Origin: Cornus controversa
Taxonomy: Eukaryota; Streptophyta; Magnoliopsida; Cornales; Cornaceae
Assembly (NCBI GenBank): GCA_026545225.1
Contig: CM048848.1
Location: forward strand, 15,613,353-15,677,352
Direction: 5' to 3'
Length of the DNA: 64,000 nucleotides
The notes beneath the pieces are model-generated. The model made no database searches and was not told the origin of the DNA. It was given only the letters and a program-made list of their open reading frames with translations. Positions 5,335-42,380 of this stretch are shown piece by piece. The position numbers and the translations under genes are program-made. Positions within the stretch are counted from its first letter, which is position 1. Each line of letters starts with the position of its first letter.

Positions 5335-7129
5335 CTTTATCTTTTCGTATTTTCTACTTTACTTTATATTGTTTTTCTTTCTTTGCTTTTTGATAGGCCA
5401 TGTTGGCCATGTTAGTTTTTGTGTATTCCAAATGCATGTACCCTTTTGTACTGAAACTCATTTTGACATATATGGAATACAGTTGTCATTTCTTTTATAG
5501 CATGTGTTCTATTTACTGTCTTTCTTTTTACTTTCTGCCAATATCTCTGCTATCTATACTTTGACTATGTATGTAGTACCACTTGCCTAATTGTTATATG
5601 CGATTCAATTGATGATTTCCGTTTATTACCGCCTGGTTTCAATTCCTAATACTGTTGAGATTGCTTCAACGTAGTATGGCGTTAATAAAGAAAGGCAGCC
5701 CCTTTGAATGCTATACGTTAGCGTGCCTGGATAGTCAATATCTTATCGCATAGACCTCTTAGTCAATTTGGAAACACCAGTTCAGAGCCTTGGATGTGCA
5801 GTGATCTCGGCATTGTCAACTTGTACATAATTCTTTTATCATGTTCTTTTCATGTGCTTTTTGTTCCATTTAATGCTCGTGGTATCTAGTTGGTGTTCCG
5901 TGCAGGTTTTTCTCATTTACAGGATGACCGGTCGTGTTGGAATGCCATTTTTGTCGAGTTTTGCAGTCCCGGTAATTTCTTTCCTTGTTCTTCTTGTCCA
6001 AGCATTGAGGACAATGTTGCATCTAAGTTTGGGGGTGCGGTATGCTATACCACTTGCATATGCATGCAAATGTTCAATCTTTGTATTGATTGTCATTGTA
6101 GAGCAGTTTTTTTCTTGATATTTTTGCATGCTTGCTATGATGTCTTGTTTTTTAAGGGAAGATCATTCGAATAAATGTCCGAGGTAAATGTAGCAGGTAG
6201 TTAAGAGCTTTAACATTGTAAATACCCGCACTTTTGCAAGCTATGTAATAAGTTAGAACGGTCCACATTTTTGTTCAAATATGAATATGTACGGTTCTTG
6301 CCCTAAATTTGTCCTTAACCGCACAAATTCACACACATGCATTTTAAATTGTGGGGTATAAGTCTGATGGAGTATTTTATAAATTTCTGTTTTTATTTGA
6401 ACAGCTTAAAGAATGAGTTTTTCCGGTTTTAAAAAAAAATGAAAAAAAAAGAGAAAAATATGCAATAAGCCTTCTCACTCAATAAATCGGATCTCTATGC
6501 CTCATTAAGCATGGAGTATTCGCGTATAAGTGTGCAAGGTTGAGCAATAATAAGCGGGTGGCTTATTTAAGCTCATCGCCTTGTAAGCTAGGTTATTAAG
6601 TCCGAGGGGTGTTTCTTCACCTAATACCCTAAAACCAATTGGTTTGGGAGTCATTGGCCCAATGCCGCTACATGGGCTTGCAAGAAAGGAAAAAGAGCTA
6701 AGCATTGCACGGTCATCCGCACATGAGCATTCATGTATATTTTGCGGTAATAAACAACAGTGTCGAGCTTTTTCAATGAGTTTTTCTTTTAAAAATAGAT
6801 TTGTTCTTACTTTTCTTCAAATATGACAAAGTCACGCGTTAGAATGCATGTTCACTTTTCAAAGAGGATTTTGGGGTTGGAATCGGTATTTTTATTCGGA
6901 CTGGCCATTATGTGGGGACCTTCATCTGTTTGTAGTTTGTGAAGGTCCATTTTTGCTAATGACCGCATAGTTCTGTAATACTTGTTGCATTTGTCAGGTG
7001 TGAAATGAACGGATAATCATCCTTTATCTAGTTGATGACAAGCATGATTCAATTTTTGTATAAGATAGTTCATTTCATTTTTGTAACATTACATTGCTAA
7101 GGGACTAGCAATGTATAAGTTTGGGGGTG
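5335..7129 (+). other. 3' non-coding tail of element A with two polypurine-tract-like motifs
   Basis: No coding region is supported here. The motif AAGTTTGGGGGTG occurs twice: at 6025-6037, preceded by TTGAGGACAATGT, and at 7117-7129 immediately before the LTR. The latter is the expected plus-strand primer site. A block around 6628-6653 (CCAATTGGTTTGGGAGTCA) is also found in elements B and C. The tail is otherwise AT-rich. Confidence 0.75.
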
Positions 7130-8534
7130 TGATAAGTGTTCGATACTATGCATTTGAACCCTCTTTATTGTATATGTTAGTCCCGTTATTATGTTTACCG
7201 AAATACGTTTACGGTATTTTTGTGTTTGTGATGTATTGCAGGTTTTGTACTAAAAGGAGCAATGTTTGAGGCCATTTGTAGTTGAAGAGCAGAATTTAGA
7301 AATGAAGCTAAGACATCTCGATCAATCGAGATGTTGATCTCGATCAATCGAGATCTCGATTGATCGAGACATGCATTACGATTAATCAAAATCTCAAACA
7401 ATTAAGATTCCAATCTCGATCAATCGAGATTCTGCAGACCCACTTGCCCACTTGCTCACCTGTTCTCCCACTTGCAACAAAATCCACCTTTTTGCACGAC
7501 TTGGATGAATTTTCTGACTTGAAGAAGACACATGGAGATATTATTGATTTAGTTGGTATATATATTGCTATATATATATATACATGGTGGGTCCCAAGGA
7601 TGGAAAGTAGCCAAATATGCACAAAATGAGCCATTTCTCTCATATATCACATACCATACATTAGAGATTTACGGGAGAGGAGAAGGAGAAGCTGAACCAG
7701 ACCTTGAAGCTTCATTTTCTCCATCAATGGAAGAGTGCAAGGCTGCCATGATCAACTAACTTCTCTACTAGGGTGTGGGTGAAACCTCTAGCCATGTAAA
7801 CTTGTTCATTTTTGTAGCATTATTTGGGATTTGTATTTAAATGTTGATTACTTAGTCTAGTGATGATGTACACTTATACATTTCTTATATATATTCATAT
7901 GATGTTGTTTTTATTCTTGTCTTAGAGTAGAATCCATCTTATGAATGCACAACACTTGCATCTTCTACAAAAAGTGTAAGTGATGGCTAAGCAATGGTGT
8001 TTAAATTGAATGTGTTGTTCTTGCTTGTATAAACCATGCCAAAATGAGGTAATTTGGATGCATTTAGGTTCACTTAGAGAGTAGGGTAATTAGTTAGGTT
8101 GAAGAACTATGCTTGTTGAAGATGGGTTATGATAGGTTGGAAAGCACATTGATCTTTTGATATGTTATTGAGGTCACAAGCCTAATGACATTGTTAGGCA
8201 TTTCATTTTATAAATCCCAAGCTTGCTACATTTATGGACATGTGAATGGCTAGTGGTGGAAACCACCCCTAGTTCTCTCTCCCAATTTACAACTCTTTAA
8301 ATTTAGTGTTTTTACATTTCATGTAATAGTTTTAAAACAAAAATCAAAACCTTGTTTTTAGAATTAAAGTGGAATTAATCTCTCTTCAAGACAATTAACA
8401 ACTAGTTCTCGTGGGATCGATACCCTCTATATAGAACCGTATCTACAAAGATTCGTGCTCTTGCGAGTGGTTAAATTATATTTTGAAAAAGGGCAAAAAT
8501 AAGCTTACAATTATAATCATGTTTAGCCACATCA
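7130..8534 (+). repeat. 3' LTR of element A
   Basis: The LTR begins TGATAAGTG directly after the polypurine tract and ends in CCACATCA. It corresponds end to end, in reverse complement, to the 1420-1422-bp LTRs of element B, with clear divergence. It is 1405 bp. It carries a six-copy palindrome array at 7315-7431 and an AT-rich, TATA-like stretch near 7557-7582 that may be the promoter. Confidence 0.9.
7315..7431. repeat. TCGATYRATCGA palindrome array in LTR A
   Basis: Six near-palindromes with mostly CTCGA...TCGAG arms lie in the U3 part of the LTR, about 130 bp upstream of the TATA-like run. The B LTRs have six motifs at the same place, with TTCGA...TCGAA or mixed arms. Confidence 0.85.
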
Positions 8535-8689
8535 GCAAGCGTGAATCTTGCCCCCTTGCCAAGGGTATTTCATATGAGAGAGTTGGAAATAAGCTTTGTA
8601 TGGAAGGTTTGCCCCCTATCTGTCCAGTCTTTTACCAAGGTTTTCTTGACTCAATGCCTTATGTAACTGAGAACCATCAAATGAAGTCA

Positions 8690-12490: not shown

Positions 12491-12935
12491 GATAAGAAAT
12501 ATTCCACCCAAAAAAAGAAAAAAAATAGTACTAGCATTTTATAAACACTGCTGATAAATGTGTAGAAATTCCGTTGCCAATGTTTGGAAAATGCTAGTCA
12601 AAATTTTAAAAAAAGAAATTATGCTGCCAGCGTTTGAAAAATGCTGGTCAAAATTTAAACTATAACCGGCGTTCAAGAAATGCTGGTAAATATGAAAGTA
12701 TGATGATTATTTTAGTCTACAACGGCATTCAAAATTGTCGCTAAAGTAAATTTTTACTAGCATTTGGTCTTAGACCGCTTGTTCATGAAAGAATACCGGT
12801 AATCGCCTTGTGACATAGGAAATACCACCGGACTTTCACGAGTGTTGGTACATCATTGGTAATTCTTTTACCAACGTTTTTGATTACTTTCACCAGCGTT
12901 TCTACGTGGTGGTGAAAACCAAAAATGTTGTAGTG
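12491..12935. mobile_element. Terminal region of a CACTA (En/Spm-type) DNA transposon
   Basis: The stretch ends AAAAATGTTGTAGTG at 12935, the reverse complement of the CACTACAA terminus typical of CACTA elements. The last 450 bp carry many direct and inverted copies of a short subterminal motif (GCCAGCGTTT / AAATGCTGGT), the usual transposase-binding arrangement in this superfamily. The opposite terminus and the transposase gene are not recognisable, so this is a fragment or a very decayed copy. The 3-bp flank is GTC. Confidence 0.65.
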
Positions 12936-12937
12936 GT

Positions 12938-13600
12938 CATCCCCTTTAGACATCGAAATTAACCTTTGTAAAATTCATTCTCTTTAGACATCTAAATCAA
13001 CCTTCCTAAAATTCATTCTCTTTAAACATTGATATCGAACTTCGAAACGATCATTCTCTCAGACATTCGTATTGACCTTCATAAAGGTCATTCTTTTAGA
13101 TATTCATATCGACCTTCATAAAGGTCAATTTCTTAGTCATCAAAGTTAACCTTCGTAAAGGTCATTCTCTTTAGACATTGACATTGACCATCACAAAGGT
13201 TATTCTCTTTGGACATCGATGTTGAATTTCATAAAGATCATTCTCCTTAGACATTAACAATTGGCCTTCGTAAAGGTCATCCTTTCTAGACATCGACATA
13301 GACCTTCATAAAGGTCACTCTTTTTAAACATTGTACATCGACCTTTGTAAAGGTCACTCTCTTTAAGGCATCATCTTCGACCTTCATAAAGGTCATTTTG
13401 TTCAACTCAAAACAAACTTTTTAGAGGTTACTCTTTCCAAAACACACCTTCGTAAAGGTCATCTTCTTTAGGCATCGATATCAACCTTCGTAAAGAGAAT
13501 CCTCTTTAGAAATCAATATCAACCTTCATGAAGGTCATTTGTTTTCAAATCAAATCACGACTTTCCTAAGAGTTACCCTTCCCATTTGACTTTCTTAAAA
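12938..13600. repeat. Degenerate minisatellite with a GACCTTCATAAAGGTC hairpin motif
   Basis: About 13-14 degenerate copies of a unit of roughly 45-55 bp, with the pattern TTCTCTTTAGACATCGATATCGACCTTCATAAAGGTCA and variants (given only as a pattern), run head to tail. The best conserved part of each unit is the 16-nt near-palindrome GACCTTCATAAAGGTC (6-bp arms, 4-nt loop). The array starts three bases after the CACTA terminus. Confidence 0.85.
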
Positions 13601-15378: not shown

Positions 15379-17648
15379 ATGAGAGAGCTTTGTGATTTGC
15401 AAATCCTTGTAAATGGTCATGAAACGTTCATTCTGAACGAGGTGAGGTAATCTAATCCTCCCTGCCCAAATATATACATATATTATATATTTTGTCAAAT
15501 AAATTGTAGTATTCAGTCTCGATAAAGTTTTTCAATTTTTACGAACAGGAGATCATTTCAAGGTTCTCAGGAAGGTTGAGAAATATAAGCAAGCAAGAAA
15601 AAAGACGAAGTGGTATTAGGAAATCGACGGGAATAATTGAAATGGATGATTTTCCGGGAGGCCCAGATGGGTTTGAGCTGGTTTCAAGATTCTGTTGCAA
15701 TCAAGGCACAATCACAATCACAGTGTCAAATGTTTCTCTCCTCCATTGTTGTGCAATATATCTTGGAATGACTAGTGAACAGAAAGCTGTGTCAAACAGC
15801 TGCAATATTATTAATCTCTTGCATCAAACCGAGACCTTTCTTGAAGGAATGTGTTACTGGTCTTGGAATGATATTCTGACTTGTCTCAAGAGCTGCAACT
15901 CATTCTTCTCGTATGCAGATTCATGTGGTCTCCTTCAAAAGCTCATGTGTTCTCTTTTGGCAAAGATATATCCGCAGAATTCTCATCATATAAACCTCAC
16001 TGCTTCTTCAACTTCTTCGTCTTCTTCAATATCTTCTGATCCTGAAAGTACTAGTGATGCATCTGAACTGATGAAGAAGCCATCACGCTCCTCCTCAAGA
16101 AGCAAATTCTGGTGGTTTGATGATCTGACAATTTTATCCCCAAAGATGATAGAATGTTTCGTCAAGACTTTAGGGGCTAATTATGGGATTACTGATAACA
16201 GTAACAACAACTTAATCCTCACAAGATTCCTCGTACATTATCTGAAAACAGCTGTTCAATCCTCCCAAGTGAATTCGAGGTCGTCGTCCTCCGATTATAC
16301 TGGTCTTGCAGATGCAGCTGTTTCTGGGGTGATTTTGATGGGTAATACTTCATTTTCTTGCAGGGGTCTGTTTTGGGTATTGAGGGTTGTGTCTGGTTTT
16401 GGTCTGAACAGAGAGTGCAGAGATGGGTTGGAGAGATTGATTGGTGGGATGCTTGATCAAGCAACTTTGGACGACTTGTTGGTCTCTGGGCATGATGGGG
16501 TGGGTGTTTATGATGTCAATCTTGTGCTGAGATTGATTAGATTGTTTGTTCATGCATATGATGATGACAAAGTTTTGTGTGTGTCCCTACTTAAGATGAA
16601 AAAGGTTGGTAGATTAATTGACAAGTACTTGAAAGAGATATCTCCAGACCAGAACCTCAAGGTCTCAAAGTTTCTTAGAGTTGCAGAGAGTTTGCCAGAT
16701 CTTGCAAGGGACTGCTTTGATGAGGTCTACAGAGCTATTGATATCTATCTTGAGGTGATCATCATTTGTATATATATATATATATATGTTCTTGTCTAAT
16801 TTGTCATTATTTAAACAACTAAATTAGGATATATATAAATAGTACTTGATTCATCTCAAAATGTGTTAATAATATAAACATTACTAGTTTGAATCCTCGG
16901 TAATATTGGTTTATACCTATATAGTTTATGTTGATGCGAATGACATATATGATGAGTAAAATATATTAGAAGCAGGGCCAAATTTAAAACAGCTATGCCA
17001 GGTTATGAGATGATAGATATTTCAGCCATCATTTCTATAATATATTGAATGTTTGAATGCATATGATTGGTAGTTCATTGTTGGAATTCCCTATCTTGAT
17101 CCATGTTCCCATACAGTATTTAATCTCCCTCTCTCTCTCTCTCTCTCTCAAATACAGTTTTGTTAAATTACTTTTCAAATGGTATAGTATATTAAGTATA
17201 TGATAAGATGGTTATACATATATATATATTGCAGTCTCATCCCACTCTTTCATGGGAGGAACGATCGAGGTTATGCAGATGCCTTAATTATAAAAAGTTG
17301 AGCCTCGAAGCTTGTAAAGATCTTGCAAAGAACTCTAGAATTCCTCCGAGGATTGCGGTTCAAGCGCTGGCTTCTCAGCACCCCACTATACCCACAAAAG
17401 AATTTGTCAATGAGAGTCCAATTAGCACAAGCAATACCCAAATGGTTTTGTACAACATTGGGGCTGATGATGCAGAGAGTATTCCAGAAGAGAACAATGA
17501 TATGAGACTAAACCTTCAGAAGATGCAATGGAGGGTTGTGGAGCTGGAGAAAGTGTGTAGGGAGATGAGGGGTCAGATGTCAAGAATGGTGAAGGGTAGG
17601 GTCGTCTCTGCCCCTGCACATCCTAGGGCATTGCCTAGATTCTGCTGA
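15379..17648 (+). CDS. NPH3 / BTB-NPH3 family protein, three exons
   Basis: Exons are 15379-15441, 15549-16754 and 17235-17648, joined through AG|GTGAGG...CAG and GAG|GTGATC...GCAG introns of 107 and 480 bp, both phase 0, giving 560 residues. The N-terminus (CDLQILVNG, ISRFSGRLR, DFPGGPDGFELVSRFC) is the shortened BTB-like region of the family. A Ser-rich linker follows at about residues 150-180. The NPH3 domain starts at WWFDDLTILSPKMIECFVKTL (about 190) and runs through YRAIDIYLE into exon 3 with KLSLEACKDLAKNSRIPPRIAVQAL. A short coiled-coil-like segment (MQWRVVELEKVCREMRGQM) closes the protein. Family members are plasma-membrane-associated or cullin-3 adaptor proteins acting in phototropin and auxin-transport signalling; this member's role is not known to me. 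It resembles the shorter subgroup with a reduced BTB region (Arabidopsis At3g22104 type, from memory). The gene looks intact and is the only clear host gene. Confidence 0.9.
17129..17149. repeat. CT microsatellite in NPH3 intron 2
   Basis: A (CT)n run lies in the second intron, which also has (TA)n runs near 16770-16788 and 17218-17229. The last of these sits just upstream of the splice acceptor. Confidence 0.9.
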
Positions 17649-17990: not shown

Positions 17991-19309
17991 TGTTGGTATG
18001 GGCCACTCAGGCCATTTAGGGTCTTTCACGTGGGTCCAGGTGGCAACGGTCCCACTTTGACTTTTCCTCCATTTCGAGCTCCTTCAGCCATTCCAGGTGG
18101 CAACGGTCCCACTTTGACTTTTCTCCTATTTTCGAGTTCCTCCGAGCAGAGAGAGTCTCCATCGATCTCCTCCTCGTACGATTTTCCTATCGAGCTCATT
18201 CTCAAATAGGGGATTTTAATCGAGCTCCTCCGAGGAGAGAGAGTCTCCATCGAGCCCCTCTTCGGATAGAGGATTTTAATCGAGCTCCTCCGGTAAGAGA
18301 AATTTACCTTCGAGCTCCTTCCCTTATTGTGAAGGGCACGCCTCAGAGGGGTGATTGCTTTTCTTGGGCAAGTTGTTCTCTGCTAATGACACTTCACGGA
18401 GGTCCTCTCTACGGATCAACCTCCATTTTGCAAGGAGGCACTCCTCTCTACGGATAAAGCCTTGCGAGGAGTTCCTCTATACGGATAAACCTCAAACGAG
18501 TCTCTATCCTTTCATTTGGATACAGCTCGGATGGTGATGAGTTCCTCTCTACGGATAAACATCACGGGAAATTCTCTCTCCGGATCAATTTCCCCCAAAG
18601 CGAGGAGGCACTCCTCTCTACGGATAAAACCTCGCGGAGGTCCTCTCTACGGATCAACCTCCATTTTTACGAGGAGTTCCTCTCTACGGATAAACCTCTT
18701 TTTACGAGGAGTTCCTCCCTACGGATAAACCTCGTGGCGCTCCGCGCTCCTATGGGGGGGTAAGAGCTCGGATCACTGCCTTATGGGAACCAAGGGCTTG
18801 GGTTCGGAGGCTGGAGTCCAAGGTACGCTAAATCCGCGACGGACCTCGTTTCTAGCTAGGATGAGGACCTTGCATCATGGATTGGCCTGTCACAGAGGAA
18901 AGGAGATAACCAGGTGAGGTGAGCGAATCCCTTTTTCTGACAAGTGTAATCTCGGCCCTTGATTCACAGATATTTACCACAGATATTTACCACCGCAAAA
19001 CCTAGACCCTTGGTGAGAAAAGACATTTTTGCCTATAAATAATGAGAGAAAAGTAGAAAACAGGGGGGGATGAAAAAAAAAAAAACAAGGAAGGGAGAGA
19101 GCAGAAAAATAATTTGTTTACCTTCTTTTCGGACAATACCAGACTCCTCAGGATCCTCTCATTTTCCTACCCAATCCTCCCCTCTCCTTACAATCCACTT
19201 AGAACAGTGGGCTCCTCTGTGACAGCTTGGATTCCCACTGGGACCCGCTCTCTGGCGACCATCATCGTGGAAAGTTTGACTTCAGTTCTAACAGAACCTA
19301 CTACAAACA
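17991..19309 (+). repeat. 5' LTR of the Tat element
   Basis: TGTTGGTATG...CTACAAACA, 1319 bp, preceded by the target copy CAGAG. It contains a tandem duplication of a roughly 50-bp block at about 18034-18120 (CAGGTGGCAACGGTCCCACT twice), the hairpin array at 18398-18735, and near 19031 a TATAAATAATG box that is a candidate promoter. GC content and sequence differ sharply from the AT-rich flank. Confidence 0.96.
18398..18735. repeat. Hairpin array with constant core and variable complementary arms (5' LTR)
   Basis: About ten units share a core near TCCTCTCTACGGATAA. The flanking arms differ between units but match within each: GGAGG/CCTCC (18398-18402, 18420-18424), GCAAGG/CCTTGC (18430-18435, 18460-18465), GAGG/CCTC (18466-18469, 18490-18493), GTGATG/CATCAC (18534-18539, 18560-18565), GGGAAAT/ATTTCCC (18566-18572, 18588-18594), GCGAGG/CCTCGC (18600-18605, 18630-18635), GGAGG/CCTCC (18636-18640, 18658-18662), GAGG/CCTC (18671-18674, 18695-18698) and ACGAGG/CCTCGT (18704-18709, 18730-18735). 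A divergent CGAG/CTCG unit lies at about 18497-18528. Function is unknown. Confidence 0.9.
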
Positions 19310-19311
19310 TT

Positions 19312-19329
19312 TGGCGACTTCACTGGGGA
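19312..19329 (+). other. Primer binding site of the Tat element
   Basis: TGGCGACTTCACTGGGGA starts two bases after the LTR. The leading TGG pairs with the CCA end of a tRNA, as expected for minus-strand priming. I think the tRNA is an arginine type, as reported for related elements, but this is from memory and unchecked. Confidence 0.8.
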
Positions 19330-19345
19330 AGCAATCTTTGCCACT

Positions 19346-20593
19346 ATGAGTTTGCAAAACCGGCCAGCGAGCCAAGCACAACCCGCTGACCTCGAGGTCC
19401 CCCCGGAACAGAGCGCGAGCAACATACCGCTTGTGCCAGAGCATGAAGCCCGCTTTGTGTCTCGGGCTCGTTCCACATCGCGATCGTCTCAAGGAGGAAG
19501 TGCCGAGTTATCCCACCGTATGGATCAGCTCGAGCAAAATCAAGCCCAGATTATGACTGCCCTTCATAGTATGGCGGTCAATAGGCAAAGGGTTGATGAC
19601 GAGCGAGAAGTGGTCACGCCGGTGCAAGCATTCGCCTATGCAGACTCTCCGAGGCGTTCCAGAATCGTGATGCCCGAATCATCATTTCGCGGCTCCCAAA
19701 GAGTCCCGGCTCCGCGCCGCGGTCCGGTACGACGAGCTTTGTTTACTACTCCCCTGGACGCGGAGCATCCGTATGAGCAAACCCGCAGAGTGACATGCCC
19801 CGCCGCCAGGGTCGAGCCGGACCCCCTAACAGCACCCTATGCCACGGTAGCAGAGGTTCGAGCCCTTCTGAGTGCAGAGCGGAATAGTCAAGTCTTGGAT
19901 ATAGAGGCCGAGCCACCGTATTCCCGAGCTGTAGCTGCCCTCCCTTATCCAGAAGGCTATTTGCAACCCAAATTTTTGAAATTTGATGGAAGAAAAGGAA
20001 ATCCGCGTGAGCACGTGGTAAGATTCATCGAATCTCTGGGGAGACACGCCCACGATCATAATCTTCGTCTGCGGGAGTTCTCTAAAACTCTGACGGACAG
20101 AGCTTATAAGTGGTATGTTAATTTAGAGCCAGGCTCTATTGTTACTTGGGGACAACTGGTTGCACGCTTCCACGCCAAGTTCTTCCAGGCAGAGGAAAAG
20201 ATTACTACTCTTTCGTTGATAAAGGAGGTCCAGGGGCAGCAGGAGGCTCTGTCCGATTATGTTCGACGCTTCCATAATCAAGCTATGGAATGTTATGAAA
20301 ATACCAATGAAGAAGAGTTGGCTAAAATTTGCGTCCAGGGGATGCAAAGAGATTACCGAATTCATTTGGTGAATCTCAAACTGCACTCGTTCGCCGAACT
20401 GATCACGGCGGCCAGGAATCTGGCAAAAGATGTAACTGCTGCCGCCGGAAACTTGATAGCAGAGGAAAATCGAGGGAGGCGAAGGCCTGTGGTTTTAGTC
20501 GCCGAGGAGCGTAACACTAAAAAAGCAACCAGGGGACTAGCGCCTCGACATCCAGATTCCTTGCCACCGCCTTTTCCTTGCCCCCCCGAGTAG
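19346..20593 (+). CDS. Gag polyprotein of the Tat element
   Basis: This 415-residue frame starts at an ATG 16 bp after the primer binding site. The first 180 residues are polar and low in complexity. The retrotransposon gag capsid-like domain covers about residues 200-370, with the typical WYVNL, WGQLVARFHAKFF and SLIKEVQGQQEALSDYVRRF blocks. Gag assembles the cytoplasmic particle in which reverse transcription happens. The frame ends at a TAG at 20591-20593. The same frame carries one more stop (20612-20614) and then opens again into the protease region, so gag and protease share a frame but are separated by two stops. No classic CCHC knuckle lies before the stop; a Cys/His cluster follows in the next open piece. 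Confidence 0.88.
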   Translation: MSLQNRPASQAQPADLEVPPEQSASNIPLVPEHEARFVSRARSTSRSSQGGSAELSHRMDQLEQNQAQIMTALHSMAVNRQRVDDEREVVTPVQAFAYADSPRRSRIVMPESSFRGSQRVPAPRRGPVRRALFTTPLDAEHPYEQTRRVTCPAARVEPDPLTAPYATVAEVRALLSAERNSQVLDIEAEPPYSRAVAALPYPEGYLQPKFLKFDGRKGNPREHVVRFIESLGRHAHDHNLRLREFSKTLTDRAYKWYVNLEPGSIVTWGQLVARFHAKFFQAEEKITTLSLIKEVQGQQEALSDYVRRFHNQAMECYENTNEEELAKICVQGMQRDYRIHLVNLKLHSFAELITAARNLAKDVTAAAGNLIAEENRGRRRPVVLVAEERNTKKATRGLAPRHPDSLPPPFPCPPE

Positions 20594-20647
20594 GTAGTGG
20601 CGATTGTTAACTAATGGATAACTGATGGGTCGATTACACTTCCTGAG

Positions 20648-21799
20648 GTGGAGATCCTACCCACACCCGAACAAGAGCGCCATCCGCGCTTCTGTATGTA
20701 TCATCGCCATTGTCGCCACCCGACGTACGATTGTTGGGCCCTAAGGAATATGTTTCAGCAGCGGATCGCCAGAAAAGAGCTAACTCTGGATCCACCCGAT
20801 ATCAGGAGTAACCCATACCCCACTCATGAGCAGAATGTAACGGCAATGTTGGTATCATACGAAGAAGATGAAGGACTTGACCCCCAGGCGTTGGCAGTAG
20901 CGCTGGTGGATGAGGAGTATAGCCGGGCCTTTAATTTATTAGAGGAACCGCGCATCAGGGTAGTTCTGGACCAGCTCGGACTGTCATGTATCGCTCAGAG
21001 AGAAGTGGCGAGGGTCCTCGTGCGGGTTATGGGCGAGCTAGTGCGAGAAACACCTTCGGTATGTGAGGTACTTGAACAGCTCGAAACAAAAGGGGCAGTT
21101 ACATTCACGGAGTCAGACAAACAGGTCCAAGTACCACACAATCGGCCGTTGTACGTTCCTGCTGTTCTTAACGGGGTTGAGTTGAAGAGAGCTTTCATGG
21201 ATAACGGCTCATCTTTAAATGTCATGCCTTTGTCCGTTTTTGAAAGAGTTGGTTTGCGAAAAGATCGCCTGGTACAAAAACCCATTGAAATCATGGGATT
21301 TACGAGCAGGTCGTTGAGAACCGAGGGCTACGTGGTGACCCAACTCAAGATTGGCAAATTCTCAGCTCTTACCAAATTTCATGTTATAGATGCAGAGACT
21401 TCGTACCATCTTTTGATCGGGCGAGGGTGGATGCACGAATTCGGGGTGGTCCCGTCGTCATATCATCAGTGTATGAAAGGGACACTAAAAGGGAGAAGTG
21501 TTACGGTCCCGTGCTCGGACCGACCCTTTTTGGCTGGTGAGGTGCACATGGCCGAAGCCAAATTCTTCCAAGAGCTCGACGAAGACGATGGTGTACCCAC
21601 GGAATTTCGCGCTACTCCGCTACCCAAGTGGAAGGATTTGCAGCCCGAGCCCAAGCGAAGCGCGAAGAAAATGAAGTCGAACCCTGACAAGTTCGAACCC
21701 CAGCAGGCTGCGGCAAAGCTCACGATACCCCCACGTAAAACAACATACACCGTCAAACGTTACTTCCTCCCGGATGGAAGAGTGGCATATCGTTCGTGA
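20648..21799 (+). CDS. Protease region of the Tat element
   Basis: This open piece of 383 residues is in the gag frame. It begins with a Cys/His-rich segment (FCMYHRHCRHPTYDCWALR) that may bind nucleic acid. The aspartic-protease-like domain lies at about residues 165-280, with FMDNGSSLNVMP as the active-site block and HLLIGRGWMH near its end. The D-N-G-S form replaces the usual D-T/S-G and the functional effect is unknown. The protease would cut the Gag-Pol polyprotein. The start used here is a GTG after stops and probably not a real initiation site. The frame ends in a TGA that overlaps the next frame by four bases (21796-21799). Confidence 0.8.
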   Translation: MEILPTPEQERHPRFCMYHRHCRHPTYDCWALRNMFQQRIARKELTLDPPDIRSNPYPTHEQNVTAMLVSYEEDEGLDPQALAVALVDEEYSRAFNLLEEPRIRVVLDQLGLSCIAQREVARVLVRVMGELVRETPSVCEVLEQLETKGAVTFTESDKQVQVPHNRPLYVPAVLNGVELKRAFMDNGSSLNVMPLSVFERVGLRKDRLVQKPIEIMGFTSRSLRTEGYVVTQLKIGKFSALTKFHVIDAETSYHLLIGRGWMHEFGVVPSSYHQCMKGTLKGRSVTVPCSDRPFLAGEVHMAEAKFFQELDEDDGVPTEFRATPLPKWKDLQPEPKRSAKKMKSNPDKFEPQQAAAKLTIPPRKTTYTVKRYFLPDGRVAYRS

Positions 21800-22593
21800 C
21801 GGTGCGAGGGGTCCGAATTCCCCCCGGAATATCTGATCCCTTCGAGGCCAACGAAAGCTGGGTGACACAGGAGCTTCATGATGCGTCAGAGCTCGAGGAA
21901 GTTGACCTGGCTGATGATGGAGTCCCGCGGATTACGTATGTGTGTAAACACTTGAAGAAAGAGACGCGAGACTTGCTGGTGTTATTACTCAAGAAGTATA
22001 GAGATGTTTTTGCCTGGACATACGAAGAAATGCCAGGATTAGACCCTCGGTTGGTCTCTCATCATCTCAACATCCGGCACGGTGCCACACCGATTAAACA
22101 ATCTTCAAGGAATTTCAGGCCAGAGTTGGAGCTCCAAATCAAGGAGGAGGTGCAGAAGCTCCTGGCCGCTGGGTTTATCAAGCCCATTTTACATCCTACT
22201 TGGCTCGCCAACGTTGTACCGGTGAAGAAAAAGAATGGTACTATTCGAGTATGTGTAGACTTTCGAGATTTGAATGCCGCATGCCCAAAAGATGAGTTCC
22301 CATTACCGAACATTGACACTATGATAGACTCTGCGGCGGGTCTTAAGATGTTTTCATTCATGGATGGGTACAGCGGGTATAACCAAATTAGGATGGCTCA
22401 AGAAGATGCGGAGAAGACAGCGTTTCGGACTCCGTTGGGCAACTTCTATTTTACAGTAATGCCTTTTGGTTTGAAGAATGCAGGTGCCACATACCAGCGA
22501 GCTATGACAGCTATCTTCCATGATATGCTTCATCAAAGTGTGGAAGATTACATTGACGACTTAGTAGTTAAATCACATCATCGAGATGCACAC
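21796..22593 (+). pseudogene. N-terminal half of Tat reverse transcriptase, cut by nested element
   Basis: This frame lies one base back from the protease frame. It carries the RT blocks [47 protein letters not shown] and the catalytic YIDD (near 22549-22560). It is cut by the insertion of element B right after the CACAC target copy (22589-22593). The codon boundary falls exactly at 22594, and the frame resumes in register at 35615, so the gene was open here when B arrived. Whether the protease/RT frame change is a programmed shift or decay cannot be told; I see no classic slippery heptamer at the overlap. Confidence 0.9.
22589..22593. repeat. Target-site duplication of nested element B, left copy
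   Basis: CACAC immediately precedes the TG of the left LTR. The same five bases follow the CA of the right LTR at 35610-35614. Confidence 0.95.
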
Positions 22594-24015
22594 TGATGTG
22601 GTCGGAACTAAATTATATTGTAAGCTTAATTTTGCCCTTTTTATCAAAATATAATTTAACCACTCGCAAGAGCACGAATCTTTGTAGATAAGGTTCTATA
22701 TAGAGGGTATCGATCCCACGAGGACTAGTCGTTAATTGTCATAAAGAAAGATTAATTCTACTTTAATTCTAAAGAAACAGGTTTTTGGTTTTGTGTTTAA
22801 AACTATTGCGTAAATGAAATGACGATAAAATTAAAGAGTAAAGTTGGGAGAGAGAACTAGGGTTGGGTTCCACCACTAGCCATTCACATGTTCATAAGTG
22901 TAGCAAGCATGGGATTCATTAATTAAATGCCTAACAATGTCATTAGGCTTGTGACCTCAATGACATATCAAAAGATCAATGTGTGTGCTAACCTATCATA
23001 ATCCATCTTCAACAAGCATAGCTCTTCAACCTAACTAACTACCTAATTACTCTACTCTCTACGTAAACACTACATGCATCCAAACTACCTTGTCTTGGCA
23101 TGGTCTATACAAACTAGCATCACACATTCATTTAAACACCATTATCTAGCCATCATTTGCACTTCTTGTGGAATATGCAAATGTTGTGCATTCAAGTGAC
23201 AAAACCTACTCTAAGACAAGAATAAATTCCATATCAAATGAATATATATAAGAAATGTATTTGTGTACATAATCACTAGGCTAAATAATCAACATTTAAT
23301 TACAAATCCCCAAGAGCTACAAAGATGAACAAGTTTACATGGCTAGGGGTTGAAACCAACACCCTAGTAGAAGAGTTAGTTGCTCATGGTTGCCTTGCAC
23401 CCTTCCATTGATGAAGAGAATGAAGCTTCTTGGTCTGGTTCAGCTTTTCTCTTCCTCTCCCGAAGGTCTCTCTTTCCTTCTTCTGATGTGTATGTTGAGA
23501 GATATGAGATATGTGGCTTTTGGTGCTTTATGTATGCTTTTTGGCTCCTTTAGGCCCACCATATATATATATATATATCATTATATATATCTCTTGTATC
23601 AAGAAGGCCCCCAAAAGTCTTGTTCAAGTCAGACAATCCCCCTAAGTCGTGCAAAAAGGGGGATTTTGTTGCAAGTGGGAGAGCAGGTGAGCAAGTGGCC
23701 AAGTGGGCTCTGCAGCATTTCGATTGATCGAAATTGCATTTCGATTGATCGAGATTTTGATCAATCGAAATGAGATTTCGATCAATCGAAATCTCGATTG
23801 ATCGAAATCCACATCTCGATTGATCGAAATGCCTTGGCAACATTTTCTGATTTCATCTCTTGACTACAGAAAGCTTCCAACTTTGCTCCATTTACTCCAA
23901 TACCTGCAATACATCAAAAACACAAAAATACCATAAACATATCTCGGTAAACGCAAAAACGGAACTAACATATGCAATAAAGAGGGTTCAAATGCATAGA
24001 ATTAAACACTTATCA
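22594..24015 (-). repeat. 3' LTR of element B (left copy)
   Basis: 1422 bp, TGATGTGG...CTTATCA on the + strand. It carries a (TA)n run near 23562-23592 and a six-motif palindrome array at 23717-23830. The first about 960 bp on the + strand are identical to the other copy, and all differences lie in the remaining part, which is U3 on the coding strand. Confidence 0.96.
23717..23830. repeat. TCGATYRATCGA palindrome array in LTR B (left)
   Basis: Six near-palindromes, e.g. TTTCGATCAATCGAAA and TCTCGATTGATCGAAA, with short spacers. The matching array in the other LTR is at 35312-35424 and carries several single-base differences. Confidence 0.9.
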
Positions 24016-25835
24016 CACCCCCAAACTTACATATTGCTAGTCCCTTAGCAATACAATATTACAAAAATGAAATCAACTATCTTATACAAAAGTTTAATCA
24101 TGCTCAGTCATCAACTAGATAAAGGGCGCTCATCCATTCATTTCACAATTGGCAAATGCAACAAGTATTACAGAACTATGTGGTCATTAGCAAAAATGGA
24201 CTTTCACAAGCTATAAATGAACGACAGTCCCCACATACTGGCCAGCCCGAACAACTATAACAATTCCAACCCCAAAATCCTCTTTGAAAAGTGAACATGC
24301 ATTCTAACGTGTGACTTTTGTCATATTTGGAGAAGAAAACGAACAAATCTGTTTTTAATAGAAAAACTCATTGAAAATGCTCAACACGGCTGTTTCATTA
24401 TCACAAAACATTCATGATTGCTCATGTGCGGATGACCGTGCAATGCTTAGCTCTTTTTGCTTTCTTGTAAGCCCATGTAGCGGCATTGGGCCAATGACTC
24501 CCAAACCAATTGGTTTTAGGGCATTAGGCGAAGAAGCACCCCTCGGACTTAATAACCGAGCTTACAAGGCGATAAGCGTAAGCAAGCCATCCGCTTATTA
24601 CTGCTCAACCTCACACACTTTTACACGAATATTTCCTGCTTTGAGGCATAGAAATCCGGTCTATTTAGTGAGAAGGCTTATTGCATATTTTTCTCTTTTT
24701 ATTATTATTATTATTATTTTTTTTTCAACAACCGGAAGAACTTATTCTCTAAGCTGTTCAGATAAAAACAGAAATTTCAAAAATTCTCCCTCAGACTTAT
24801 ACCCCACAATTTAAACTGCATGTGTGCGAATTTGTGCGGTTAAGGACAAATTTAGGGCAAGAACTGTACGTGCTCGAGTTTGGACAATAATGTAGACCGT
24901 TCTAGCTTACTATCAAGCTTGCAAAAGTGCGGGTATTTACAATGTTAAAGTTCTTAACTACCTGCTGCATTTACCTCGGACATTTATTCGAATGATCTTC
25001 CTTTAAAAAGCAAGACATCATAGCAAGCATGCAAAAATATCACAGAAAAAAAAACTGCTCTACAATGACACTCAATATAATGACTGAACATTGCATGCAT
25101 ATGCAAGTGGTATAGCATACCGCACCCCCAAACTTATATGCAACATTGTCCTCAATGCTTGGACAAGAAGAGCAAGGAAAGAAGTTACCGGGATGGCAGA
25201 ATGCGAGAAAAATGGAATTCCACAGCAGCGGTCATCCTGTAAATAAGAAAAATCTGCACAGAATACCAACTGGATACCACGAGCATTACAAGGAACAAAA
25301 AGTAGATAAATAGAACATAATGAAATAATTATGCACAAACAGACAATGCCAATATCACTGTAAATCTAATGGTCTGAACTGGTGTTTCCCGATTGTCTAA
25401 GAGGTCTATGCGATAAGATATTGACTATCCAGGCGCGCTAACGTATAGCACGCAAAGGGGCTGCCTTTCTTTATTACCGCCATACTGTGTTGAAGCAATC
25501 TCAACAGTATTGGGAATTGAAACCAGGCGGTAATAAACGGAAATCATCAACTGAATCGCATATAACAATTAGACAAGTGGTACTACATACATAGTCAAAG
25601 TATAGAGAACAGATAGGTTGACGGAAAGCAAAATAAAGACAGTAAAGACAACACATGGCATAAAAGAAAATATAAAGGTATTCCATATAACTGAAAATGA
25701 GTTTTAGTACAAAGTGTACCTGCAGGTGGAATACTCAAAAAGAAACTAAACATGGCCAACATGGCCTATCAAAAAAAAAAAAAAGAAAGAAAGAAAAATA
25801 CAGAAAATAAAGCAGAAAAGATGAATAAAGGGCAG
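24016..25835 (-). other. 3' non-coding tail of element B with two polypurine-tract-like motifs
   Basis: No coding region is supported. On the minus strand AAGTTTGGGGGTG lies next to the LTR (24016-24028) and again at 25123-25135. The conserved block with CCAATTGGTTTGGGAGTCA is at about 24493-24530. This layout matches element A. Confidence 0.75.
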
Positions 25836-27059
25836 CTACTCGAGGGCGGGTGGTGGTGGTGGTGGGTCGGTGGGAGCAGAAGTGGAGGTGGAGGCTCGAC
25901 CTGCGAACAGGAACTGCAGATCCTGCCGGAAGGCTCGGAACTCATCTAAAATCGCTCTCTGGCCCTGTACCAGAGAAGAAATGTCCGTCTGAATACCTGC
26001 CAGCTGACTCTGCGTCACCTGGACGTGCTCGTCAAAACCCTGCTGGAGCCGCTCTACGTCAGCTGCCAGGCAGGAATAGCCAGTCGCTAAGATATCATGC
26101 CGCTCTGCAGTGACATCCATCTCCTCCTCCTCCATCTCCTCGTCCTCTGACTCCGCCCCTGCTGGCTCTCCCTCATCCATCTCCACCGGGGCATCCATAT
26201 CTACATCGTCTGGTGGATCACCCTGATGGTCCTGTCGCTCTAAGTGTCGCCTCACCCGATCCCACTGAGTAGATGTGAAGCGGGCGGGCGGTGCCAACTG
26301 AATGTCAGTCCGACTGACCGGTGTACTGGCACTGTTGAGAAAAGCAGCGATCAGGAATGGAAAGGGAAGCCGCCAACTCACTGTTCTCCTCTTCCTCTTG
26401 TTGACGAGGCCATCCCAAACTTTGTGCATCTGCCCCCAGATAAGCGATGGGACAGAAAACCAAGCGCCCGTATGGAAAGCATAGAGGCAACGGAGGAGGT
26501 CACCCCTGCGCTCGGCCACGTGCTGCAACGGACACGCGTTCTTGAGGAGAACGGTGTCCAGGAACCAATATCTGCTCGGGCACATCGACTTGGACGTGCA
26601 GTTGTGGTTGGGCGTGGTAAACGCCCCGCCACACATGTCCATCACTATCGAGAAGAGCGTGGTATCTGCTGGGAGCGCGGCACTATAGAGTGGCTGACCG
26701 TCCGGGCCAACCATGTCCGGCGGCTGCTGGTGAGGCATGCCGAGCATATGAGCAATCCGGCTCGGCGTAATAGTGATCGTGACAGTGGCCACAGTAGTCT
26801 CGAGTGTATCTGGCGCTGTGCAGGAGTAGGTCATATGCTCGTAAAAGACCTCCACTAGGCGCTCGTGTGCCATGTCGGTGGGAGGCACACATAGCCGGTC
26901 GAGGCGACGCCTCCTGAGCTCGGCAACCGTCCACTCGGTGTCGGGACGCCTCTCAAACTCGGCTAAGTCGAAAACCTGCTCCGGGTGGAACTTCCGAGAC
27001 CGGAAGGCTCGCCCGGGCACGTCACGAACAGCACCGGCGGCGTTCTTCACTCTCGCCAT
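25836..27059 (-). CDS. Accessory ORF of element B (putative plant transposon protein family)
   Basis: 407 residues from the MARVKN methionine. An upstream in-frame ATG would add ten residues, but the MARVKN start is conserved in element A, so it is preferred. The N-terminus is basic (GRAFRSRKFHPEQ). The middle holds the family blocks RLCVPPTD, SKSMCPSRYWFLDTVLLKN, CPLQHVAERRGDLLRCLYAFHTGAWFSVPSLIWGQM and WRLPFPFLIAAFL. An acidic stretch (about residues 285-315) leads into a heptad-like region and a proline-rich C-terminus. No signal peptide or clear membrane segment is visible. The ORF sits where env-like genes sit in Athila elements but does not look like a glycoprotein. The family has no assigned activity that I know of. 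The intact frame in a young element suggests selection on the family. Confidence 0.85.
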   Translation of the reverse strand: MARVKNAAGAVRDVPGRAFRSRKFHPEQVFDLAEFERRPDTEWTVAELRRRRLDRLCVPPTDMAHERLVEVFYEHMTYSCTAPDTLETTVATVTITITPSRIAHMLGMPHQQPPDMVGPDGQPLYSAALPADTTLFSIVMDMCGGAFTTPNHNCTSKSMCPSRYWFLDTVLLKNACPLQHVAERRGDLLRCLYAFHTGAWFSVPSLIWGQMHKVWDGLVNKRKRRTVSWRLPFPFLIAAFLNSASTPVSRTDIQLAPPARFTSTQWDRVRRHLERQDHQGDPPDDVDMDAPVEMDEGEPAGAESEDEEMEEEEMDVTAERHDILATGYSCLAADVERLQQGFDEHVQVTQSQLAGIQTDISSLVQGQRAILDEFRAFRQDLQFLFAGRASTSTSAPTDPPPPPPALE

Positions 27060-28271
27060 GGCCTCGGAACAGTCTGCACTGGATTCCAAAAGGTACGTAA
27101 ATAAAAGATGAATAAAAAGAAGGTTAAACTACTACTAGACTAAAAGAATAAAAATAAAAATGAAGTCCTAGTCCAAGGTACTGACAAAAATGCGAAAAGT
27201 TACACCCGAAGAGGCATTGTGAACGGGCGCAACCGAAACGAAGGTGCCGCGGTTACACACCGTACACTAAGCGTTTGAAATGAAGAAAATGCCAAATTCC
27301 ACTCCTGCTTGAATTCCTACCCCCCGAAACCCACAAAAACTGGATTCAGACATCGCAATCGCAACCATCCACCCCAACATGATCTAACTATGTTTATTCC
27401 GCTATAAAACTATCAAAAATGGCGAGAGAATAAACAAAAAGTAGCCATGCATCACTTACCTCGTGAGGAAGAAGATGAACGGCTCAACCGAAGAAAACTC
27501 CACGCGCAGCCGCGAAGAGAAGATCGCGCAGATGCTAGCGGCGGATCGGACTACGCCGGATGGCGGCGGATGATCGGGAATGGAAGATCGAGTGCTCGGG
27601 AGTGCTTGGAGAAGGCTTGGATCGCACAGAGGGAGAGAAGAAGTCGGATGGTCTTTTAAAATGGGAGGGAAGCCCAACGGTTTAAATAGCTTTTCGGCTC
27701 ACGTGCAGGCTCCGCGCACATTTCGATTGATCGAAATGTGTATTTCGATCAATCGAAATTTCGATTGATTGGAATCTTGCTTCGATCAATCGAAACTAAC
27801 TTCGATGGATCGAGATTGTCTCTTCGATCAATCGAACATTCCTCCCCTGAATCACATTTTTACTTCGATCAATCGAACATTTAATTGATGCAATCGAACT
27901 TTTATTTCGATCAATCGAAATCCCATTTCGATCAATCGAAAGTTTCGATCGATCGAAGACCTATCGAAGTGCAATCGAAGAATACCACCTCTCGGGACTT
28001 TGGACTTGGCAAATCTCTGCAATTTTTCGATCAATCGAAACCAAAATTTCGATCAATCGAAATTTTTGATTGATCGAAATCTTGGTTTCGATCAATCGAA
28101 ATGCTCAAAAACAGTCAGTTTAAAATATGCTTCAGGGACTTGGATATTGGGGAATTAGATACTACATTGCTTAGATACAAACCTACTTTGGATTAAAGGG
28201 ACACCATGGAAGCTTGATAGCCACCATGGCTTCGCCACCTTACACGTCTATGGCGCGACGTCCGAATCGGC
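27060..28271 (-). other. Spacer of element B between pol and accessory ORF
   Basis: No supported coding region. It includes the palindrome array at 27721-28102. Small open frames near 27447-27768 on either strand have no recognisable features. Confidence 0.65.
27721..28102. repeat. Large TCGATYRATCGA palindrome array in the spacer of element B
   Basis: About fourteen copies of TTTCGATCAATCGAAA-like motifs in both orientations over 380 bp, with irregular spacing. One copy is the perfect palindrome TTTCGATCGATCGAA-type (near 27947). The corresponding spacer of element A has the same array with mostly CTCGA/TCGAG arms. Confidence 0.92.
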
Positions 28272-31200
28272 TCACGAGTCAAAATACACGGGATCCGTCA
28301 AAGTGACGATATCCACGTATTCGGTGGTGACTTGGTCATCCACGCACACTTTTAAGCGCTGCCCGTTTACTTTGAATATCGAACCATCTTTCAAGTCCTT
28401 CAATTCCACCGCTCCGTGGGGCGCGACAGAATTAACCAAAAATGGACCATCCCAACGGGAGCGAAGTTTTTCGGGAAACAAATGGAGGCGTGAGTTGTAC
28501 AACCAAACTTTTTGGCCCGGCAAAAATGTTTTGACTCGAATATTACGATCGTGAAAGGCTTTGGACCTTGCCTTATAGATTTTTGCATTCTCATAAGCGT
28601 CATGTCGCAATTCTTCCAATTCATTTAATTGAAGCTTTCGATTAGAACCGGCCTTTTTCATGTCAAAATTGAAGGTCTTGGTGGCCCACATAGCTTTATG
28701 CTCCAATTCAACCGGAAGATGGCACGCCTTGCCATAAACTAACCGATAAGGTGACATTCCAATGGGAGTTTTATATGCGGTTCGGTATGCCCATAATGCG
28801 TCGTTTAGTCGCAATGACCAATCCTTCCGGTCAGGCCGAACAGTTTTCTGAAGAATGTTCTTAATCTCCCTATTGGATACTTCTACTTGGCCACTAGTTT
28901 GAGGATGGTAGGGGGTGGCTACTTTGTGTGTGACGGAGTATTTGAGAAGCAAGGTTCGAAGGAACCGGTTACAGAAATGCTTACCTCCGTCACTGATGAT
29001 GGCCCGAGGCGTACCAAACCGGCTAAAAATGTTAGCTTGTATGAATTTAACCACGACTGCGTGATCGTTGGTTTTGGTAGCAACGGCCTCTATCCACTTA
29101 GATACGTAGTCCACCGCCACAAGTATGTACTCATGACCAGTAGAGGGTGGAAATGGTCCCATGAAGTCAATGCCCCACACATCAAATATTTCAATGACAA
29201 GAATAGGGTTAAGAGGCATCATGTCCTTCCGAGACATCGCGCCGAGGCGCTGACATCGCTCACAAGAGCGGCAGAATGAATATGCATCCCGATGAAGTGT
29301 CGGCCAGAAAAATCCGCATTGAAGAATTTTTGCTACGGTTTTCTTAGCACTAAAGTGTCCCCCACAAGCGAGTGTATGACAAAATTTAAGAATGCTTTGG
29401 AATTCACTGTTGGGTACACACTTACGAATTATTTGATCGGGGCAGTATTTGAACAATTGAGGATCGTCCCAATAATATGATCGTGATTGGGAGAGAAAAC
29501 GATCCTTCTCTTGTTTGGTCCAAGAAGATGGTATTTTACCGGTTGCCAAATAATTAACCACATCCGCATACCAAGGGATACTCTCTTGAGAGATGACAAA
29601 GAGTTGTTCATCCGGGAATGATTCACAAACTGGAATGGAATTATGGAGGGATTCAACAAGAATTCTAGAAAGGTGGTCAGCTACCACATTTTCAGTTCCC
29701 TTTTTGTCTCTAATCTCAAAATTGAACTCTTGCAACAAGAGTATCCATCGGATCAACCTAGGCTTAGTGTCCTTTTTCGCCAAAAGATGCCGGAGGGCAG
29801 CATGGTCCGAATAGACAATGACCTTTGAACCTAATAAATAAGCTCGAAATTTGTCTAATGCAAATACTACCACAAGCAATTCCTTTTCCGTTGTGGTATA
29901 ATTGATTTGAGCCTCGGAAAGGGTTTTACTTGCGTAATAGATGACATGTGGCAGTTTGTCTACTCGTTGCCCTAAGACCGCACCCATGGCATAGTCGGAT
30001 GCATCACACATAATCTCAAATGGGAGAGCCCAATTTGGAGGGATTAGAATTGGAACGGTTGTAAGCATGGCGCGGAGTTTTTCAAAAGCGTCAAGGCACG
30101 CTTCATCAAAGGTAAAGCAAGACTCTTTTTCAAGAAGGCGACACAAAGGCCGAGAAATCTTGCTAAAGTCTTTGATGAAACGGCGATAAAAGCCCGCATG
30201 CCCAAGGAATGAACGAATCTCTCTCACCGTGGATGGTGGAGGAAGTTTGGAAATGAGCTCAACCTTGGCTTTATCAACCTCTATTCCTCGCTTAGACACA
30301 ATATGCCCTAGGACAATACCCTCTTGAACCATAAAGTGACTCTTTTCCCAACTAAGAATTAGGTTGGTTTCTTGACATCTTTTGAGAACACAAGCTAGAT
30401 TTTGGAGGCATGATTCATATGAAGGCCCAAAAATGGAAAAATCATCCATGAACACTTCTAAGAATTTTTCCACCATGTCCGAGAAAATAGACATCATACA
30501 CCGTTGAAAAGTTGCCGGTGCATTGCACAACCCAAAGGGCATGCGTCTATAAGCAAATGTGCCGAAGGGACATGTAAAGGTGGTTTTCTCTTGGTCCCTC
30601 GGGTCTATAGCAACCTGATTATAGCCGGAATATCCATCCAAAAAGCAATAAAAGCTTTGCCCGGCCAATCTCTCCAATATTTGATCAATGAATGGAAGGG
30701 GGAAGTGATCTTTCCGAGTGGCTGAATTTAATTTCCTATAATCAATGCACACTCTCCATCCTGTGGTGGTGCGTTGGGGAACTAATTCACCCTTATCATT
30801 AGGTTGCACCGTAATACCAGACTTCTTTGGAACCACTTGAGTGGGACTAACCCACTTGCTATCAGAGATGGGGTATATGATCCCCGCATCTAGTAACTTC
30901 ACCACCTCCTTCATTACAACGTCCTTCATGTTTGGATTCAATCGACGTTGTGCCTCCCTTGAGGTCTTTGCATCCTCTTCCAAGTGTATGCGATGCATAC
31001 AAACAGAAGGGTCTATTCCCTTAAGATCTACCACACTCCATCCTATTGCTTCTTTGTGCTCTTTGAGCACCTTTATGAGTTCCAATTCTTGAGCATTTGT
31101 GAGATTGGAAGCAATAATGACTGGAAGGGTCTCATTTGCGCCCAAGAAAACATACTTGAGTGTAGCTGGAAGAGGCTTGAGCTCAAGTTGTGGTGGGGAA

Positions 31201-32834: not shown

Positions 32835-32867
32835 GGCATTCGCTTGCTCTTGAGCATAATCGGGAGA

Positions 32868-33905: not shown

Positions 33906-34165
33906 GCATTAACAATTGAACAGCACCTCTACACACAAAGTAACAATCATATATACAAAAGAATGTGAATGATTCAAACCACCAATTTTTGAAGTTATAC
34001 TCACAAAGGGTTCCAATTTGAATTCTTCTAGATGCCCGCAATGTGGTATACCTAAAATCAAGAAGTTTGAGATATAAGAACAAGATATATACAAAAGAAT
34101 GAAAGAATTTCTAGCCTAAGAATTAAACCAGATTTAATCTTCCAATGGCGACAATTAAACCGTAG

Positions 34166-34183
34166 TCCCCGGCAACGGCGCCA
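34166..34183 (-). other. Primer binding site of element B (tRNA-Asp type)
   Basis: On the minus strand TGGCGCCGTTGCCGGGGA lies six bases after the LTR end. This sequence is the well-known complement of the plant tRNA-Asp 3' end used by Athila-type elements (established knowledge, recalled, not searched). Confidence 0.92.
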
Positions 34184-34189
34184 AAATTT

Positions 34190-35609: not shown

Positions 35610-35614
35610 CACAC

Positions 35615-42261: not shown

Positions 42262-42380
42262 GTCTTGAATGAGTTCGGAAGCAAGGGAGAGTTGAGATAA
42301 GAATTCAAAGTTTGCTCTGGAGAATTGGAGATTCAAGGTAAGAAGAATGTAGAAAAATGAAAATTTTCTAAGTTCCCCAT

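Follow-up and report, generated by a model that had tools for sequence, protein, structure and literature searches.

A repeat array with a near-constant core and varying, matched arms in the LTRs of a retrotransposon of Cornus controversa

The stretch of DNA analysed here (the window) comprises 64,000 nucleotides of the Cornus controversa genome (contig CM048848.1 of assembly GCA_026545225.1) and harbors a long LTR retrotransposon on the plus strand. Two copies of a 1319-bp sequence (TGTTGG...AAACA) at 17991-19309 and 42669-43987 are 99.6% identical over their whole length, with 5 substitutions, and CAGAG can be read directly from the sequence on both outer sides of 17991-43987. The near identity of the copies together with the CAGAG flanks identifies them as the 5' and 3' LTRs of one element. 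The 5' LTR is followed, at the position of a putative primer binding site, by TTTGGCGACTTCACTGGGGA, which may resemble the primer binding sites of Ogre elements. Gag, protease, and the start of reverse transcriptase are encoded in three open reading frames (ORFs) at 19346-22596 (+), assigned by Pfam matches; the protease ORF ends at 21799 and the reverse transcriptase ORF starts at 21796. The pol region is split by a nested Ty3 element (22594-35612) that has an LTR pair of its own and encodes gag-pol on the minus strand. It continues 3' of this insert in an ORF at 35624-38473 (+) with Pfam matches to RT_RNaseH (127-225), RVT_3 (280-398), presumably the archaeal-type RNase H, H2C2 (601-651), and the integrase domain rve (669-765). 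Among the best 120 of 456 pol relatives, the top one comes from Camellia sinensis (58% identical). Between pol and the 3' LTR lie three antisense ORFs of at least 150 aa (38758-42441, minus strand), one with a plant mobile domain (PF10536, E 2.3e-30; 40395-41852), one with a weak PEARLI-4 match below the Pfam cut-off, and one matchless. Upstream of the element, an ORF of the NPH3 / BTB-POZ family (At3g19850-like; 15576-16799) is probably a piece of a host gene; the top relative among the best 120 of 481 is from Nyssa sinensis (67% identical).

Judged by its coding domains, the element is a member of the Ty3/gypsy superfamily and of the Tat clade (Ogre/Retand group) of angiosperms. The angiosperm Tat group is marked by an additional, archaeal-type RNase H that follows the first RNase H and precedes integrase (PMC6317226, in the parts covered), and a second RNase H is found at exactly this place. 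The 5-bp target duplication agrees with the 4 or 5 bp given for the clade, a non-specific trait, as 5-bp duplications flank 93.4% of plant LTR elements in the same source. An extra ORF with a plant mobile domain, present here in antisense orientation, is reported for 57% of Ogre elements, and Ogre elements are described with two polyprotein ORFs (GAG-PROT, then the rest) separated by 274 bp (intron) on average (PMC6317226, as far as covered). This gap is absent from the present element, where gag, protease, and reverse transcriptase occupy three ORFs. A Pfam scan of the three antisense ORFs (150 aa or longer) did not reveal the antisense TRP28 domain (PF04195), given for 97% of Retand clusters in the portion of the source covered. 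The element is therefore filed under the Tat clade without a subclade.

Both LTRs carry an array of nine arm-core-arm units, located at 18398-18735 (+) in the 5' LTR and at 43076-43413 (+) in the 3' LTR, the latter being the copy expected in sense element RNA. The array is 338 bp long, begins 407 bp into the LTR and ends at 745 bp, so that its last unit reaches about 85 bp beyond the middle of the 1319-bp LTR. A TATA-box-like motif (TATAAAT, 19034-19040, +), a putative promoter element, lies downstream and places the array in U3. Each unit displays a near-constant 17-nt core, TCCTCTCTACGGATMAA, framed by arms that are unlike between units and pair within the unit. A search with a 15-base version of the core at up to two mismatches yielded nine sites in the 5' LTR (starts 18405-18715) and nine in the 3' LTR at identical offsets, and none elsewhere on either strand of the window. 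The earlier note had counted about ten units; nine stand at this threshold, and the tenth, a weak match at 18256, emerges with three mismatches when the LTRs are searched at up to three. Two of the five differences between the LTRs fall inside the array (one in a core, one in the base preceding a core), which is unremarkable since the array makes up 26% of the LTR length.

The spacer between the 5' arm and the 15-nt core occurs in three sizes (2, 5 or 8 nt), and the spacer classes TC or TT, AGTTC, and AGGCACTC correspond to loops of 17, 20, and 24 nt, respectively. Short spacers are found in units 1 (18398-18424, GGAGG/CCTCC), 5 (18566-18594, GGGAAA/TTTCCC), and 7 (18636-18662, GGAGG/CCTCC). 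The middle class comprises units 3 (18466-18493, GAGG/CCTC), 4 (18534-18565, GTGATG/CATCAC), 8 (18671-18698, GAGG/CCTC), and 9 (18704-18735, ACGAGG/CCTCGT), and long spacers characterize units 2 (18430-18465, GCAAGG/CCTTGC) and 6 (18600-18635, GCGAGG/CCTCGC), all units being read on the plus strand. The arm pairs quoted in the earlier note are thus all present, with only four contiguous pairs in units 3 and 8 and five in units 1 and 7. A comparison of units 4 and 9 shows 6 differences among 12 arm bases and 1 among 20 loop bases; units 2 and 6 show three differences over arms and loop, two of which constitute one matched pair. The core spacings are not whole helical turns, and the CpG observed/expected ratio is 0.97 in the array versus 0.71 and 0.52 on its two sides. 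A coding role was rejected, as each of the six frames contains at least two stops over 18301-18800 (one plus frame is open for 101 codons). Rfam over 17991-19400 returned two matches with E values up to 1, far below the gathering score and outside the array, and one of four 12-base words of the core was matched in published text, in a single paper. The same U3 also holds, within 18035-18330, a direct repeat of 40 bp (GGTGGCAACGGTCCCACTTTGACTTTT), its copies 57 bp apart, and a 30-bp array in which ATCGAGCTCCTCC is near-constant. Hairpins in this upstream 30-bp array (18130-18390) were considered and dropped (z -0.50, 56 of 200 shuffles as good).

The arms covary within the units beyond chance. 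With fixed-length flanks and freely placed stems, the longest stems formed by each unit's own arms sum to 48, versus 37.2 for swapped arms (P 0.0003). Over five flank lengths, P ranges from 5e-5 to 0.002, and a sum of 48 was reached by 1 of 2000 sets of dinucleotide-shuffled flanks. When the register is fixed, Watson-Crick pairs fill 49 of the 54 inner positions, against a mean of 32.9 for swapped arms; 8 of 362,880 arm permutations are as good as the own arrangement, or 4 of 40,320 with the duplicate arm pair entered a single time. Since this register was picked with pairing in view, the P values of the free-stem test are the safer ones. Leaving out any one unit keeps P at or below 2e-4, so the result is not carried by a single unit, and without units 4 and 5 it stands at 0.0016. 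Sliding the 3' arm by one to four bases reduces the Watson-Crick pairs to 9-18 of 54. The core search and the comparison of own with swapped arms hence confirm what had been claimed before, an LTR array with a near-constant core between arms that change and still match, and the shuffled-arm control proposed at that time turned out in favor of the own arms.

The changes affect both sides in five of the six inner pairs, and a one-sided change via G-U is seen in none. In an alignment of nine rows, all units of one array and with the class-specific spacers shortened, the covariation score amounts to 0.50 versus 0.17 for shuffled arms (0 of 500 as good) and at most 0.27 for slid partners; further pair types number 7, which is not exceptional (5.9 in shuffles, 136 of 500 as good). 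G-U pairs are absent from the 54 inner positions, and of the five inner cells left unpaired, three hold C-A, equivalent to U-G in antisense RNA. The seventh, outermost pair contributes three wobbles on the sense strand. Watson-Crick and wobble pairs together amount to 54 of 63 on either strand, so that this count favors neither as the strand of action. All of these values come from one element with two near-identical LTRs. The earlier note took changed but matching arms as the pattern expected of pairing that is itself maintained. The covariation bears out the matching of the arms and suggests that either selection or a copying mechanism maintains the pairing; for selection as the cause, one-step template switching is a rival (PMC8794818, in the parts covered).

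Ten further arrays in the window served as controls, with P values of 0.06 to 1 for own versus swapped arms. In the 38-bp array at 12935-13545, the arms are complementary, yet own arms hold no advantage over swapped arms (15 units, P 0.55-0.96; 0.28 in the best phase). Six clusters of TCGAT palindromes with 4-10 units each gave P 0.06-1 in a fixed register, and the 71-bp, 67-bp, and 30-bp arrays (5, 3, and 5 units) gave best-phase values of 0.39, 0.32, and 0.19. An own-arm excess thus appears in 1 of 11 arrays, the LTR array, where several of the others are too small to have much power and two clusters represent the two LTRs of one element. When all 45 TCGAT palindromes of the window (40 of them in the clusters) are pooled, 141 of 180 positions pair with own arms versus 107.5 with swapped ones, and 0 of 50,000 permutations are as good. 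This pooled excess arises because the arms differ in a matched fashion between clusters, and it tells against the uniqueness of the pattern in the LTR array.

The window is rich in repeats of other kinds. Palindrome clusters with TTTCGATYRATCGAAAT / TCTCGATYRATCGAGA occur at 23715-23830, 35309-35424, 27720-28102, 3071-3330, and 7319-7440, that is, in the LTRs and the interior of the nested element (22594-35612) as well as within or next to the related elements at 10-3152 and 4008-8535; several of them are among the most strongly folding windows. The 38-bp units at 12935-13545 (GGTCATTCTCTTTAGACATCGAAATTGACCTTCATAAA; 15 core sites at up to four mismatches) do not have matched arm changes and exhibit strong predicted structure (z -7.3 in the window starting at 13099). 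Two related tandem arrays, 46217-46562 and 50431-51164, are oppositely oriented and separated by about 4 kb; their units contain CCTGACATGCC and ATACCTTATTAGGTAT-like stretches.

The predicted folding of the 5' LTR array exceeds that of shuffled sequences on both strands (z -4.19 sense, -4.89 antisense; 0 of 100 shuffles as good per strand). Among 363 windows scanned on the sense strand (30 shuffles per window, pairs spanning at most 80 bases), the array ranks 20th (3' LTR, z -4.39) and 29th (5' LTR, z -3.64), and the strongest windows are the palindrome clusters of the nested element, with z -10.4 at the window starting at 23719. Folded singly, 9 of 9 units form the outer stem, in agreement with the stem-loop per unit proposed earlier. 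The competing inner hairpin that had been pointed out, TCC/GGA, is likewise recovered, in 6 of 9 units on the sense strand; unit 4 has lost it and kept the outer stem. In context, about half of the outer stems are predicted to form, with mean probabilities of 0.45-0.53 (sense) and 0.33-0.51 (antisense). Over six sense settings, the probability is 0.99 for unit 4, 0.89-0.99 for unit 5, 0.82-0.98 for unit 7, 0.53-0.99 for unit 1, 0.37-0.65 for unit 6, and 0.14-0.51 for unit 9, whereas units 2, 3, and 8 never exceed 0.22 (0.26 when both strands are considered). The minimum-energy sense fold pairs unit 2 with unit 3 and unit 8 with unit 9. Units 4 and 5 have the most distinct arms; that they fold their own stems while other units cross-pair suggests that arm change may aid local folding, as far as can be predicted from this one array.

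Palindrome arrays in LTRs are of a known kind. Sireviruses have eight or more palindromic boxes, of which 3-14 lie in the 3' LTR, and these resemble the present array in forming several clustered copies upstream of the TATA box, in the upper LTR half (PMC2829016, in the parts covered). The earlier statement that there is no described equivalent was hence too strong, as those boxes are found at the same location. The conserved part in Sireviruses is the arms, with a CGG-CCG signature in 12 of 13 elements, and the loops, as read from the consensus list, measure about 0-4 nt (PMC2829016, same parts); here, the core is constant, the arms vary in a matched way, no CGG-CCG frames the core, and the loops have 17-24 nt. 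A small RNA excess has been mapped to the palindrome-cluster regions of Sireviruses (PMC10760457, in the parts covered). Sireviruses belong to Ty1/copia, while the host here is a Ty3 element with reverse transcriptase and RNase H before integrase. The TTTCGATYRATCGAAAT / TCTCGATYRATCGAGA clusters, with constant arms and a tiny loop, are a closer parallel to the Sirevirus palindromes. Retand and Ogre elements share family-specific repeat arrays and extra ORFs, antisense in Retand, with the present element; Retand arrays lie between pol and the 3' LTR and not, as here, inside the LTR, and the parts covered of the two sources make no mention of a matched-arm pattern for Retand/Ogre arrays (PMC11963269, PMC6317226). 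Matched multi-base arm changes around a kept loop are known from RNA hairpins attributed to template switching, found in microRNA and rRNA genes and not in an LTR array (PMC8794818, in the parts covered). For the constant core with varying matched arms, no described equivalent was found in the openly licensed literature, mostly at title and abstract level; this swap of the constant and the varying part was thus not found described. Structured RNA export elements exist in the U3-R region of animal retroviruses, e.g. the RcRE of HERV-K, the RmRE of MMTV, and the RxRE of HTLV-1. There, U3 RNA of the 3' LTR is bound several times by one protein, and the array would work alike. These elements are not known to be built as constant-core repeats with changing stems.

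The reading that we tentatively favor, at somewhat less than an even chance, is a repeated stem-loop that is kept by selection and acts in the RNA of the element. In an LTR element, U3 occurs once in the sense transcript, near the 3' end, and as the array lies upstream of the TATA box, only its 3' LTR copy would be part of the element's own sense RNA. Each unit would be a small stem-loop in single-stranded RNA, most simply in the sense transcript, whose outer stem need only pair, so that its letters could drift in matched steps. The core would be the part that is read, by a protein of host or element origin binding several copies at once, and a multivalent site of this kind, close to the 3' end, would be well placed for RNA export, packaging or 3'-end control; differing arms would help a unit to fold on itself and not with its neighbors. 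This reading is supported by own arms that beat swapped ones, changes on both sides of five of six pairs, near-fixed cores, an array that folds better than shuffles, and outer stems in all single units. A near-fixed core with arms that merely match, variable loops, and unphased spacings is also easier to accommodate in single-stranded RNA than in duplex DNA. Against it stand the approximately half of outer stems formed in context, the modest z rank, and the matching in the pooled palindromes. Selection on RNA pairing is expected to leave some G-U pairs, so their absence from 54 inner positions argues against it as well. The full picture, in which a retrotransposon RNA shows one core nine times on matched, diverged private stems with each hairpin folding on itself, appears doubtful.

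That absence is just what template switching would produce. At quasi-palindromes, a switch during DNA replication or reverse transcription recopies one arm and restores pairing without selection, and mutation patterns consistent with template switching making and mending RNA stems, with matched arms arising in one step, have been described (PMC8794818, in the parts covered). Matched changes would then lack G-U intermediates, as observed, including changes that G-U cannot bridge, e.g. C-G to G-C in column 3 and G-C to U-A in column 6. The preference of the 45 pooled TCGAT palindromes for own arms fits as well, and matched arms may be a wider feature of this region. The core may in that case be conserved as a DNA motif or be young; template switching alone leaves near-constant cores between changed arms unexplained, and the cores of the array are not inverted. 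The six palindrome clusters and the 38-bp array could undergo the same mutation, yet none of them, several being small, exhibits an own-arm excess at P 0.05. Template switching is a serious rival to selection, although we judge it somewhat improbable as the explanation, and both are compatible: switching could supply the matched changes, and selection could keep them. It is rather unlikely that the array acts as a transcriptional enhancer in duplex DNA, with the core as a factor site and the arms secondary. Its nine copies upstream of the TATA box and the CpG ratio of 0.97 against 0.71 and 0.52 in the flanks would suit this role, as would the Sirevirus boxes at the same LTR place (PMC2829016, in part), and cis-regulatory regions of elements are often repeat arrays, sometimes palindromic (Martin et al., PMC10760457, in the parts covered). 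An enhancer gives no account of why changed arms still match, and the varying spacers, loops of 17, 20, and 24 nt, and unphased core spacings speak against a rigid dyad read in duplex DNA. Cruciforms look unlikely too, with arms of 4-6 bp around loops of 17-24 nt. Very improbably, the hairpins act in antisense RNA, driven by a putative promoter in the 3' LTR toward the antisense plant-mobile-domain ORF, with the array in or before the leader. The nearest antisense ORF starts at 42441, some 230 bp short of the 3' LTR, and its transcript may thus start in the LTR, the antisense fold is slightly stronger (z -4.89 vs -4.19), and the three C-A cells become U-G; the wobbles of the outermost pair fall on the sense strand, however, and the totals are equal. 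We know of no antisense transcript or promoter for this element. Chance pairing of short GC-rich arms by composition is hardly credible: most units have similar arms, and 32.9 of 54 positions pair even with swapped arms, but the few permutations (8 of 362,880) and shuffled flank sets (1 of 2000) that do as well and the 9-18 of 54 pairs in slid registers contradict it.

Searches for further copies covered two contig collections. The exact core-plus-arm pattern had no match in the viral collection, where 27 contigs each contained a single match to the bare 15-base core, which we attribute to chance, and the two-core pattern had none in the genome collection. With the pol protein, seven stretches of the viral collection matched a word, none of them a relative, and the genome collection yielded two distant loci, both in records labelled bacterial.

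Two roles have been considered for palindrome arrays of LTRs, that of regulatory regions and that of triggers of silencing by small RNAs (PMC10760457, in the parts covered). With a fixed core on changing, matched stems, natural variation would allow the effects of sequence and of pairing to be told apart. Should the match stem from template switching instead, the array would represent a mutation process that imitates selection on RNA, and this would bear on every use of covariation as proof of function.
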